DNA of 45,341 nt from IMG/VR virus record IMGVR_UViG_3300021090_000045, positions 1 to 45,341 of that record; one strand, 5' to 3'. Source of the DNA: a virus. Position 1 is the first letter of the stretch, and each line of letters opens with the position of its first letter. Shown in pieces: positions 9,618-38,025 of the stretch. The notes beneath the pieces were generated by a model. The model saw only the letters and a list, made by a program, of their open reading frames with translations, did no database searches and was not told where the DNA came from. Made by a program: the position numbers and the translations under genes.

Positions 9618-10987
9618 ACATTGTGTCCGTTTTCAATGAAGACACTGACGTCGTTGGCGTCCTTCGTCACAATCTCCATGAGCACTTGTCCGCCGGCAGC
9701 TTCTGCGGCATCGGCAATCAGCTTGAAGCTATCGTCGTCAAGCGCGTTGCCGTTCTTGATGCACAGCAGCTTCAGCGCGGGATTCAGCGCGAACCCGATG
9801 GCGACGCTGATGCGAATTTGTTCCGCTGTCGAAGCTTGCTTGAGATTGATCCCTTTGAACGTGACGGCGCCATCGTGGGAGATGCTGAGACCATCAATCG
9901 GGAATTTCGTCGTGCGTAGCAGCGTCGCCTTCTTGTCGTCGAACCCAGCGATTAGCGCGTCTTGCTCTTCGCTTTGCTTCTGAAACTTTACGACGGTATT
10001 CATCACGTCGCGGCGCGCTTTGTTCGCGCGAATCTTATTGTTCGTGTCTTCAAGTTCTTTGATCTTGCCTTGCACATGCGACACGTCTGGAACGGCGTCT
10101 TCTGCCACCTTCACGTCACGCGCTGCGCGCTCAGCTACGTCACGAGCAACTTGGGCAGCGTCTGAGGCTTCGCGATGTAAGTTCGCGGTACCTCCGCGTC
10201 GTTGCTGCAGCTCTGCGATCTGTTCGTCCAACGCGTTCAGTTTCTGCTTCAGTGAATCGACGTTCATGCTGGCGCGCAGCGATGCTGCCGACATGTCTGA
10301 TTCATACCGTTGAGCAATCACAACCTTTTTTCTGAACTCTTCAGCCGCGTTCAACTCGTCGATCAACTCAGTTGCGAAGACTTCCGTTTCTGGGACGCCG
10401 TCGTATTTCGCCATCGCGTCAAGCAGCACCAGCTGTTCTTTGTATTGTTTGTTGAAGACGGTGCGTCTGTCATACGCGATGGCGCGCAGCTCGTCGTGGT
10501 CTTTGAAATCAAGTCCGACGATCTGCCGCAAGATCTCTGATTGCTTCTTGGACTCTTCCAGCGCGAACGCCGTGGGATCAAACGTCAGCTTGCCGATCAA
10601 CCGATCCAGCAAACGCTGCGCCGGCTCTTGTTTGACCCCCTCAGGATTCTTGACTAGCAGACGCGACTTCACTTCACCATACGCAGGCGGACCGGACTCC
10701 GGCTGCTCGGTCAACAGGTCGCGCCAGAACTCGCGACGGACCAACAGCTCGCCTAAGTTCAGCTCGACGAAGCCGCGTGATTCACCACGCTTCAGCGGTT
10801 CATCTGGGCACAACGATAGGCCACCAAGCGCCATCGCGACAGCGTTAAGCACGCTCGACTTTCCAGCGCCGTTGCGCCCTCCGAGCGTGAGCACGCGTTT
10901 CCCTTCTTGCCACGAAAATTCTACCGCGCTTAAACGCAGAATGTTTGACGCTTGCAGCGACACGACACGGACGGCTGGGTTGCTCAT
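9614..10987 (-). CDS. RecN/SbcC-like AAA ATPase
   Basis: A protein of 457 residues. The Walker A motif GRNGAGKSS is at 37-45 within a typical SMC/Rad50-type N-terminal lobe (ASNILRLSAVEFSWQEGKRVLTLGGRNG). A moderate coiled coil (about 170-335) replaces the long arms of true SbcC. A signature-like helix (KQASTAEQIRISVAIGFAL) follows, and then LKLLCIKNGNALDDDSF at 405-421 in the Walker B position. There the usual acidic pair after the hydrophobic strand is replaced by Lys-Asn, followed by an LDDD block. Phage ATPases of this group are thought to assist recombination or end processing of viral DNA. It is translationally coupled to its neighbours on both sides by ATGA overlaps. Confidence 0.8.
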   Translation of the reverse strand: MSNPAVRVVSLQASNILRLSAVEFSWQEGKRVLTLGGRNGAGKSSVLNAVAMALGGLSLCPDEPLKRGESRGFVELNLGELLVRREFWRDLLTEQPESGPPAYGEVKSRLLVKNPEGVKQEPAQRLLDRLIGKLTFDPTAFALEESKKQSEILRQIVGLDFKDHDELRAIAYDRRTVFNKQYKEQLVLLDAMAKYDGVPETEVFATELIDELNAAEEFRKKVVIAQRYESDMSAASLRASMNVDSLKQKLNALDEQIAELQQRRGGTANLHREASDAAQVARDVAERAARDVKVAEDAVPDVSHVQGKIKELEDTNNKIRANKARRDVMNTVVKFQKQSEEQDALIAGFDDKKATLLRTTKFPIDGLSISHDGAVTFKGINLKQASTAEQIRISVAIGFALNPALKLLCIKNGNALDDDSFKLIADAAEAAGGQVLMEIVTKDANDVSVFIENGHNV

Positions 10988-12156: not shown

Positions 12157-12202
12157 GATGGTCCTTCGTCGGGTAACAGCGCGCGTGATTGCGTGCTGTA
12201 TT

Positions 12203-34648: not shown

Positions 34649-34717
34649 AGCGCGTTGCACCCAGCAACCGCGACACGAAGGACAAGACGTGTTCAACCTG
34701 TGCCCAGGTGCGATTCG

Positions 34718-36826
34718 ATGATCGCGCCATCAAGCATTCTCGATTTCTACTTTCAACATAATTTCAGACTCGTCTTCTGGCCCCAGATTGGCGACAGCAA
34801 GGGCCCGCACGAGCGCGGATGGACCGAGCGTGTTTACACTCGGGAGGATTACCGCGACGGCATGCGCGTCGGCATTATGTGCGGACACGAGCTGTCGTCT
34901 GGGAAGTTTCTACATGATGTTGATATCGATTGGGCTGATGGCGCCCAGATCGCGCAGTCACTGCTGCCGGCGACAGATTTCATGTATGGCAGAACGTCGA
35001 AGCGTATTTCACACTGCTGGTACACCCTCTCAGAAGCCCTTCCCTCATTCAAATACATCGACCCGATAGACCAGAGCATCACGTATATTGAATTGCGTGG
35101 CGTCAAACTTGATGGCACGCTTGGTAATCAAACGATGGCGCCGCCATCGGTCTGGAGCAAAGAGAACAACAAAGAGCAATTGGCGTTTGTGCGTATGCAA
35201 TTGCCCGCACACATTGACGTGCCGTCAGGTCTGAAGCAACGGGTCTGTCTGTGCGCGATCAGTATGTGCTTCGCGCGACACTTCGGACGTAAAGGCTTTG
35301 GACACGAGCAACGCTTAGCCTGGGCTGGCTTTCTGCTGCGCGCGGGCTTAAGCATCGAAGAATGTACCGCGATTGGCAATGCCATCATGCTCTATACCGG
35401 CAATGCCGATCGCACCGACATCAAACTCGCCATTGAGACGACGAAAAAACGCCTCGACGATAAGGAAAAGAAAGTCAAAGGCGGTCCCGCGCTGGCAAAG
35501 CTGCTTGGCGAAAATGGCCGCGCTGTCATCAAACGGATCAACGAATGGCTGGGACGTGACAGCGACTTCATCCGCGACGGGAATGGCCTGATTGTTAAAG
35601 ATCACCAAGAGAATATCTCACGCGCGTTAACCATGCTGAACGTTGAACTGACCTTTAACGAGTTTAGCGATAAGTTGTTGGTGGGTCGCACGACGCCGTT
35701 GGAAGATCGCCACTTGAACGAATTGTGGTTCCGGATCGATGAAGAGTTCCGCTTTCGCCCCTCCTACGATTTCTTTGAAAAAGTTATCAAACGCATTGCC
35801 TGGAATAACGGCTTTCATCCCGTGAAAGAGTATCTAGCGACGCTGCAATGGGACAACGTTCCGCGTATCAATCGGTGGCTGATTGAATCCGCAGGCGCTG
35901 AAGAGTCTGACTACGTGCAAGCGATTAGCGCGATTGTGTTGATCGCCGCCGTGCGACGCATCAAGCAGCCTGGATGCAAATACGATGAAATGATTGTGCT
36001 AGAGAGTTCACAAGGGCTGCAGAAGTCATCCGCGTTGCGGGCGCTGTGTCCGAATCCTGAATGGTTCAGCGATGACTTCGAATTGAACGCGACAAGTCAG
36101 CGCATCATCGAATCTACCATTGGCAAATGGCTCGTCGAAGCGCAAGAACTCTCAGGCATGAGTAAAGCGCAGTCCGAGCTGTTGAAGTCGAACCTATCCC
36201 GCCAGATCGACGGACCCGCCAGAATGGCGTATGCGCGCTTGCCGATAGAACGTGCGCGACAGTTCGTCATGATTGGCACGACGAACAGTAAAGCGTATCT
36301 GGCTGACTCGACCGGCGCGCGACGCTTCTGGCCGGTGGATGTCAGTCGCTTTGATGTCGCGTGGATTATTGAGCACCGTGATCAGTTGTGGGCCGAAGCC
36401 GCACACAGAGAAGCGCTCGGTGAATCGAATCGATTACCAGAATCGTTGTGGGCTGCGGCAGGCGAAGCGCAAGAATCCCGACGAGAAATCGATCCGTGGG
36501 AACCGTTGGTCAAACAAGCGTTGATTAGCGCGCACGAGTTGCACGACTACCACGATAGGCATTCGCGCGTCGTGACGTCGTTTTTATGGAACGCCGTGAA
36601 CGTGCAATCAGAACGACGCACGCGCAGAGAAGAGACGCGTATGTCGGAAATTCTGCAGCGATTGGGCTTCAGACGCACGAAAGTTCGTCCTGCTGGTGAA
36701 GTGGTGCAAGTGGGTTATGTGTCGAAGCTGCCAGATTGGACGAGTGTGATTGAAGCCGAAGATCACATTGAAGAGATGCACGCACGCGCGGTAACTCAGA
36801 AAAGCGACGACGATACGCCATATTGA
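34718..36826 (+). CDS. Primase-polymerase + VirE-type helicase
   Basis: A protein of 702 residues. The ATG at 34718 is preferred because CAGGTG lies 7 nt upstream; an in-frame TTG at 34655 is less likely. The N-terminal domain (1-150) resembles bifunctional primase/polymerase proteins: DVDID (67-71) supplies the metal-binding acids and SHCWYT (98-103) the next motif. The C-terminal domain (about 375-600) is a virulence-associated-E family P-loop ATPase: LESSQGLQKSS (428-438) as Walker A, VEAQELSGM (473-481) as Walker B, and MIGTTNSKAYLADSTGARRF (518-537) with sensor and Arg finger. It should prime and unwind DNA at the phage origin. The GGGTAAC repeat array begins 40 nt after its stop. Confidence 0.9.
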   Translation: MIAPSSILDFYFQHNFRLVFWPQIGDSKGPHERGWTERVYTREDYRDGMRVGIMCGHELSSGKFLHDVDIDWADGAQIAQSLLPATDFMYGRTSKRISHCWYTLSEALPSFKYIDPIDQSITYIELRGVKLDGTLGNQTMAPPSVWSKENNKEQLAFVRMQLPAHIDVPSGLKQRVCLCAISMCFARHFGRKGFGHEQRLAWAGFLLRAGLSIEECTAIGNAIMLYTGNADRTDIKLAIETTKKRLDDKEKKVKGGPALAKLLGENGRAVIKRINEWLGRDSDFIRDGNGLIVKDHQENISRALTMLNVELTFNEFSDKLLVGRTTPLEDRHLNELWFRIDEEFRFRPSYDFFEKVIKRIAWNNGFHPVKEYLATLQWDNVPRINRWLIESAGAEESDYVQAISAIVLIAAVRRIKQPGCKYDEMIVLESSQGLQKSSALRALCPNPEWFSDDFELNATSQRIIESTIGKWLVEAQELSGMSKAQSELLKSNLSRQIDGPARMAYARLPIERARQFVMIGTTNSKAYLADSTGARRFWPVDVSRFDVAWIIEHRDQLWAEAAHREALGESNRLPESLWAAAGEAQESRREIDPWEPLVKQALISAHELHDYHDRHSRVVTSFLWNAVNVQSERRTRREETRMSEILQRLGFRRTKVRPAGEVVQVGYVSKLPDWTSVIEAEDHIEEMHARAVTQKSDDDTPY

Positions 36827-36866
36827 CTGGCATTCCATGGCGAAATCGCGTGTTTTTCGTCGGTTT

Positions 36867-37142
36867 GTTACCCTGTTACCCTTGGGTGTTGAGAAATTTT
36901 CGACGAAGGGTAACAAAATAAGTGCTGAGCGCTGAACGTGTTGCAGACGTTTGGCGACGTTTGTTACCCTGTTACTGTTACCCTTCGAGTTCAACACTTA
37001 GCCGGCGAAAAATTATTTTTTCTGTTCTGGCGCCAAAGAGAAGGGTAACAGGGTAACAGGGTAACAGAATGGCGGAAGTCTCACAGAGTCAACGAGTTAA
37101 AATGTTACCCTTCGTGTTACCCTCCAAAATGCGAAGGGTAAC
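36867..37142. repeat. Array of GGGTAAC/GTTACCC heptamers, candidate origin, pac site or operator
   Basis: Eleven perfect heptamers lie here. GTTACCC is at 36867, 36875, 36963, 36977, 37104 and 37116; GGGTAAC is at 36908, 37043, 37051, 37059 and 37136. A degenerate copy (GTTACT) is at 36971. Several follow each other with an 8-bp period and most form inverted pairs whose longer core is GTTACCCTTCG/CGAAGGGTAAC. AT-rich stretches lie between arms (around 36891-36900 and 37009-37024). The array occupies most of the 363-nt gap between the primase-helicase and the small terminase, which fits iterons of a replication origin, a packaging recognition site, or a regulator's operators. Confidence 0.8.
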
Positions 37143-37189
37143 AGTTTCCTTTACAGTCAGTCAAGCGACGTGCGTGCTATTGTCGCGCT

Positions 37190-37783
37190 ATGGCAGCCAT
37201 TGACGACGCAGAAACCGAAGCGCTGGCGCAGACGTGCAACGACAAAGAGCGGGCATTCGCTCGGGAGTTCGTGATCGACTTGAACGCGTCTGCCGCTGTA
37301 TGGCGCGCGGGTTGCTTCAACGTCACGACGGATTCATCGGCAGGGGAATGCGGCTCGCGCGTCCTAAGTCGCCCTAAAGTGAAGGCGCTGATATCGGTGT
37401 TGTCGGCGCAGCGCGCATCACGAACGAATCTCACAGCGGATTCTGTGCTCCATGAAATGTCTTTGCTGGCGAATAGCGATCAATCGCATTACATTGTGGA
37501 TGATAACGGGCAGATTCTGTTGACTGCTGGCGCGCCGGAAGGTGCGATGCGTGCGATTCAAAGTGTGAAGCGCAAGAAGACGATTCGCGAAGACCACGAA
37601 GGTCACATCACGATTACCTACGATGTTGAATTGAAGTTGTGGGATAAGCCCGGCTCGTTGAAGCTGATGGGCCGTCACGTGGGATTGTTCCCTGACAAGG
37701 TGCAAGTGACTGGCAAAGACGGCGGACCAATCGAGACCGTGACACGAATCGAGCGCGTGATCGTCGATGCTGCGAAAGTCTAA
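37190..37783 (+). CDS. terS: Terminase small subunit
   Basis: A protein of 197 residues. The N-terminal part matches the Terminase_2 family: NDKERAFAREFVIDLNASAA, VWRAGC, then SRVLSRPKVKALISVLSAQR, a helix-turn-helix that recognises the packaging site. The rest is an oligomerisation region with DKPGSLKLMGRHVGLFPDKV near the end, a common feature of the family. It would bind viral DNA and recruit the large terminase. The repeat array upstream is a candidate binding region. Confidence 0.9.
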   Translation: MAAIDDAETEALAQTCNDKERAFAREFVIDLNASAAVWRAGCFNVTTDSSAGECGSRVLSRPKVKALISVLSAQRASRTNLTADSVLHEMSLLANSDQSHYIVDDNGQILLTAGAPEGAMRAIQSVKRKKTIREDHEGHITITYDVELKLWDKPGSLKLMGRHVGLFPDKVQVTGKDGGPIETVTRIERVIVDAAKV

Positions 37784-37785
37784 TC

Positions 37786-38025
37786 ATGAGTTCTGACGCA
37801 CGCTTATACATGGGCGAGAATGGTTACATGTGGACGGGTAACCATGACGGTGACTGCCTTGAGGGAGCTGCCGATCACGACTCTCCGACGTCGTTAGGCG
37901 AGAAGATCACCGAGCTTGAGAAGTGTATCGGGCACTCTATGTGTTGGGTGATTGACTCGCCTGATGATTCTGATTTACGCAGATCGATTCGTCGCATACG
38001 CGGTTGGGTGGCGCATGGAGGCTGA
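37786..38025 (+). CDS. Small hypothetical protein
   Basis: A protein of 79 residues starting 2 nt after the small terminase stop. It is acidic and polar (LYMGENGYMWTGNHDGDCLE, GEKITELEKCIGHSMCWVID). Three Cys are present without a clear zinc pattern. No family recognised. Coupled to the next gene by an 11-nt overlap. Confidence 0.5.
   Translation: MSSDARLYMGENGYMWTGNHDGDCLEGAADHDSPTSLGEKITELEKCIGHSMCWVIDSPDDSDLRRSIRRIRGWVAHGG

Follow-up and report, generated by a model that had tools for sequence, protein, structure and literature searches.

An array of short both-strand iterons downstream of a VapE-type helicase gene as a probable replication origin in an uncultivated phage

Introduction

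In the genome of an uncultivated tailed phage (IMG/VR record IMGVR_UViG_3300021090_000045), a non-coding gap between a helicase gene and the small terminase gene is filled with copies of the word GGGTAAC. Which of its two neighbours does this array belong to, and what does it do? A preliminary description of the same DNA had left the choice between a replication origin, a packaging site and an operator. We addressed the question with the whole 45,341-bp stretch, hereafter called the window, and with loci that encode related helicases and terminases.

Several mobile elements offer a comparison. The origin of phage P4 consists of 8-bp iterons (GGTGAACA) that are read by its primase-helicase, the alpha protein, and a second repeat region (crr) lies away from the origin. 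In the staphylococcal pathogenicity islands (SaPIs), the origin of the hexameric, self-loading Rep helicase lies immediately 3' of the helicase gene; this origin and Rep were reportedly described by Ubeda and co-workers in 2007. Rep uses its C-terminal domain to recognise the iterons directly downstream of its own gene (PMC7581432). In vitro, Cch2 of SCCmec both binds and unwinds DNA just downstream of its gene, and its isolated C-terminal domain is enough for binding (PMC7581432).

Results

The array contains eleven exact copies of GGGTAAC, all of which read GGGTAACA when extended to eight bases (five on the plus strand and six on the minus strand), and one degenerate copy, CAGTAACA (Table 1). 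Elsewhere in the window the word occurs only twice, at 12171 and at 37836, the latter just 3' of terS, and beyond these two stray copies we found no second array in the window. A 363-bp piece with the density seen outside the array would hold 0.016 copies, and dinucleotide-preserving shuffles of the whole window averaged 1.28 copies, with none exceeding 5. These counts, coordinates and shuffles therefore bear out the preliminary description in the number, place and orientation of the repeats. By its own terms it would have been refuted if the repeat were equally common across the genome, which, with two outside copies, it is not. The 8-bp tandem period that it reported is present at sites 36866/36874 and 37043/37051/37059.

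Table 1. Features of the candidate origin and its flanks (window coordinates).
Feature	Position	Strand	Basis or content
VapE-type (SF3-like) helicase gene, 723 aa, proposed initiator	34655..36826	+	PF05272, E 4.3e-61; PHROG helicase/primase match
VapE C-terminal region (~residues 613-723), proposed iteron-binding domain	36491..36823	+	Inferred; varies together with the iteron word
Non-coding gap, proposed replication origin	36827..37189	.	363 bp, between vapE and terS
Left block, six sites	36866..36983	.	36866-36873(-), 36874-36881(-), 36908-36915(+), 36962-36969(-), 36970-36977(-, degenerate), 36976-36983(-)
A/T-richer spacer, proposed unwinding element	36984..37042	.	59 bp, 59% A+T, core 71-75% at ~37004-37030
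Right block, six sites	37043..37143	.	37043-37050(+), 37051-37058(+), 37059-37066(+), 37103-37110(-), 37115-37122(-), 37136-37143(+)
terS (small terminase), neighbour, thought to lie outside the element	37190..37783	+	Terminase_2, PF03592, E 3.7e-21

The twelve sites form two blocks of six, beginning 40 bp past the vapE stop codon. The inner three sites of each block are close tandems, mutually inverted (36962-36983 on the minus strand, 37043-37066 on the plus strand), which flank a spacer. Of the AT-rich centres noted initially, the inverted groups around an A/T-richer spacer stand, while the enrichment itself is real but modest, since the whole window is already about 46% A+T (against 59% in the spacer, and more in its core). 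The gap holds no convincing gene; only mechanical ORFs run into it, such as a minus-strand frame at 36608-36997.

Domain matches agree with the earlier identification of the two neighbours as a replication-initiator-type gene and terS (Table 1). The helicase is also related to a solved structure, 7pds ('Similar to D. nodosus vapE', E 8.5e-33), and a stretch in its N-terminal half, DVDID...RISHCWY, may be a primase-polymerase motif, judged by eye only. AlphaFold run without an alignment gave no usable model of the C-terminal domain. Beyond terS lie terL (Terminase_3) and a portal gene. The GC-skew minimum, at 34-35 kb, fits a nearby origin; it coincides with a switch in gene direction, which confounds this signal.

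We then compared the position of such arrays across VapE loci. These were gathered by protein similarity (20 named-phage regions, L004 and 80 viral contigs), and the window and L016 were added, the latter having entered through the motif and so not being independent. Sequences were scored by the largest count of non-overlapping copies of any single 6-mer on both strands, and a score of at least 6 was called an array. By this measure, an array follows the vapE stop codon within 900 bp in 57 of 102 loci, whereas 23 of 438 control blocks contain one (6 of the 152 located further downstream and 17 of the 286 located upstream). Many VapE loci are near-duplicates, and 43 non-redundant arrays are left at 90% C-terminal identity. 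The excess peaks sharply 0-600 bp past the stop codon, and the first 400 bp beat every control window of the same locus in 10 of 23 loci of the first set and in 19 of 79 viral contigs. The other 45 of the 102 loci, close relatives L167 and L173 among them, have no array by the score test. The layout with a spacer flanked by inverted tandem groups is seen repeatedly, and 27 of 31 such spacers are richer in A/T than their own locus. In several named phages (of Pasteurella, Staphylococcus, Corynebacterium and Paenibacillus) the genes that come after the array are those of nucleases and helicases instead of terS.

Some clusters lie at a greater distance. A large VapE group (L195-L217 and relatives) has TGGGACA-type arrays about 400-900 bp 3' of vapE. 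In Escherichia phage ECOO78, GGTGAC occurs 13 times within 400 bp (L159:6150-6700), some 2.3 kb beyond the 3' end of the primase gene, and this cluster is possibly a displaced origin.

The position 3' of vapE is constant and the word varies, even among close relatives. Helicases with 51-59% identity to that of the window are followed by GGTAAC (L171), GCTAAC (L170), ATTACA (L168) or AGTAAG (L169), and words in more distant VapE relatives include TGCAACA, GTCAACA, GTGACA, GGGACAA, GGTAGCA, GCTACA, GGTACA and others. Iteron similarity tracks that of the C-terminus somewhat more closely than that of the ATPase domain (partial rank correlation of 0.19, p 0.0015 by permutation). Such co-variation is the pattern expected if the C-terminus were the binding domain; the signal is small and in part reflects shared ancestry. 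As the word and the putative binding domain change together between phages, each phage lineage would have a private origin. In a literature search that covered few subscription papers, we found no statement of a both-strand array 3' of vapE as a rule for VapE phages.

A similar plan is found next to a different helicase family. In DUF927 helicases (the Cch and SaPIbov1-Rep-like group; L252-L330), an array in the 400 bp 3' of the gene beats all controls in 69 of 75 loci, or 63 of 69 when six contigs first found through the motif are left out. Nearly all of these arrays use words of the GGTAAC/GTTAC type, and the spacer between their inverted tandem groups is strongly A/T-rich. They thus share position, layout and nearly the word itself with the window, but the helicase family differs. 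When the C-terminal domains of VapE and DUF927 helicases were compared as profiles, no homology was detected (probability 0.3%), so common ancestry of the binding domain does not account for the GGTAAC that the two families share in some phages.

Discussion

The arrays are associated with VapE-type helicase genes and not with the terminase. In L004, a 13.8-kb record, 14 of 17 GGTAAC copies are at 2103-2460, beside vapE, whereas the terminase, 58% identical to that of the window, begins at 10043, 7.6 kb from the array, and has no copies nearby. In five phages with homologs of the window's terS, GGTAAC is absent from the 400 bp upstream of that gene. Because of this separation, the array-less terS homologs and the other genes that follow the array elsewhere, we regard the array as the companion of the helicase and rejected its assignment to terS. 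The same observations make it unlikely that the array is a packaging site (pac or cosB-like) where the TerS encoded downstream would bind the GGGTAACA sites and so choose phage DNA for packaging, even though the last site is only 47 bp before the terS start, the extra GGGTAAC copy follows just 3' of terS, and an unrelated terS family, described below, carries GGTAAC clusters that are conserved immediately ahead of the gene and within it.

Control of transcription into terS and the late genes, by a phage repressor or activator bound at the sites, would suit the location of the array, in a gap that precedes the late operon. If VapE regulated itself through origin sites, this would be compatible with an origin. 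The array stays 3' of vapE in phages in which other genes follow, typical operators have fewer sites than the twelve spread here over both strands of 280 bp, and we identified no candidate regulator, so that we judge an operator to be very unlikely. Hardly credible, in our view, is a functionless array that grew by short tandem duplication. One-strand tandem runs of the same 8-mer do exist in some bacterial genomes, but the sites in the window are exact, dispersed over both strands and separated by unrelated DNA, and many phages have this plan, with other words, at the corresponding place. Among the three roles offered in the preliminary description, the origin thus gains strong comparative support from arrays that lie 3' of VapE genes whatever gene follows; packaging loses ground to L004 and the five terS homologs, and an operator gains no positive support.

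We propose that the array is probably a replication origin of the SaPI kind, with the C-terminal domain of VapE as its predicted ligand. This reading, drawn from sequence comparison, follows the SaPI and Cch2 precedents and the same plan 3' of DUF927 helicases. The VapE C-terminal domain would bind the GGGTAACA iterons, and probably two VapE hexamers would assemble, one on each six-site block, facing one another across the A/T-richer spacer. These hexamers may then melt the spacer and load, giving rise to bidirectional replication.

The likeness to the known origins differs from case to case. The SaPI origin and the window both have multiple short iterons in two site groups directly 3' of the gene for a self-loading initiator helicase; the word differs, and SaPIs are satellites whereas the window is a tailed-phage genome. 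Of the features that mark the SaPI origin, an array directly 3' of the replicative initiator helicase gene is present in the window and general in VapE loci, and short iterons in two groups around an A/T-rich region are likewise present, with modest A/T enrichment in the window. The Cch2 origin is also a region just downstream of the helicase gene whose repeats are bound by the helicase's C-terminal domain. It comprises three AAGTG repeats in 23 bp, compared with twelve 8-mers in two blocks in the window, and Cch2 is of the Primase_Cterm/D5 type whereas the helicase of the window is VapE. P4 shares 8-bp iterons and a primase-helicase with the window, but the window has no counterpart of crr.

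If the proposed origin is right, it would provide a defined pair of origin and initiator for an uncultivated phage, and origins could be located by a simple rule, a both-strand array of one short word 3' of a vapE or DUF927 gene. Of greater interest than the single origin is the comparative side of this rule: across VapE phages the array stays in place and its word changes. Rapid change of the word at a fixed place would yield many natural initiator-iteron pairs with which to study helicase recognition and DNA opening.

The GGTAAC word also occurs in other settings. In the phrog_57 lambda-type terS family (L332-L411, e.g. L021:5296-5640), which is unrelated to the terS of the window, 43 of 56 loci have two GGTAAC copies within 60 bp before the start codon. 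Usually a further four to five copies lie within the first 300 bp of the coding sequence, where they encode Gly-Asn or Val-Thr; few copies are found elsewhere. These clusters look like DNA sites embedded in coding sequence, and are perhaps cosB-like, so the word may have a packaging role in other phages. Because of this family we keep a small probability for dual use in the window. It is quite unlikely, though, that unrelated kinds of DNA-binding protein (VapE helicases, DUF927 helicases, lambda-type small terminases) recognise GGTAAC in common and that the array of the window couples an origin with a packaging or late-control site.

GGGTAAC arrays also directly follow the gene of a third helicase class, with Toprim and AAA_25 domains (L005, L024 and L025); these loci were found via the motif and are a lead only. 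Bacterial genome contigs scanned for three tandem copies contained mainly one-strand runs, mostly in Bacteroidales, and were set aside. In several Bacteroidales and other genomes (L046-L146), such one-strand tandem runs of the GGGTAACN 8-mer reach up to 14 copies.
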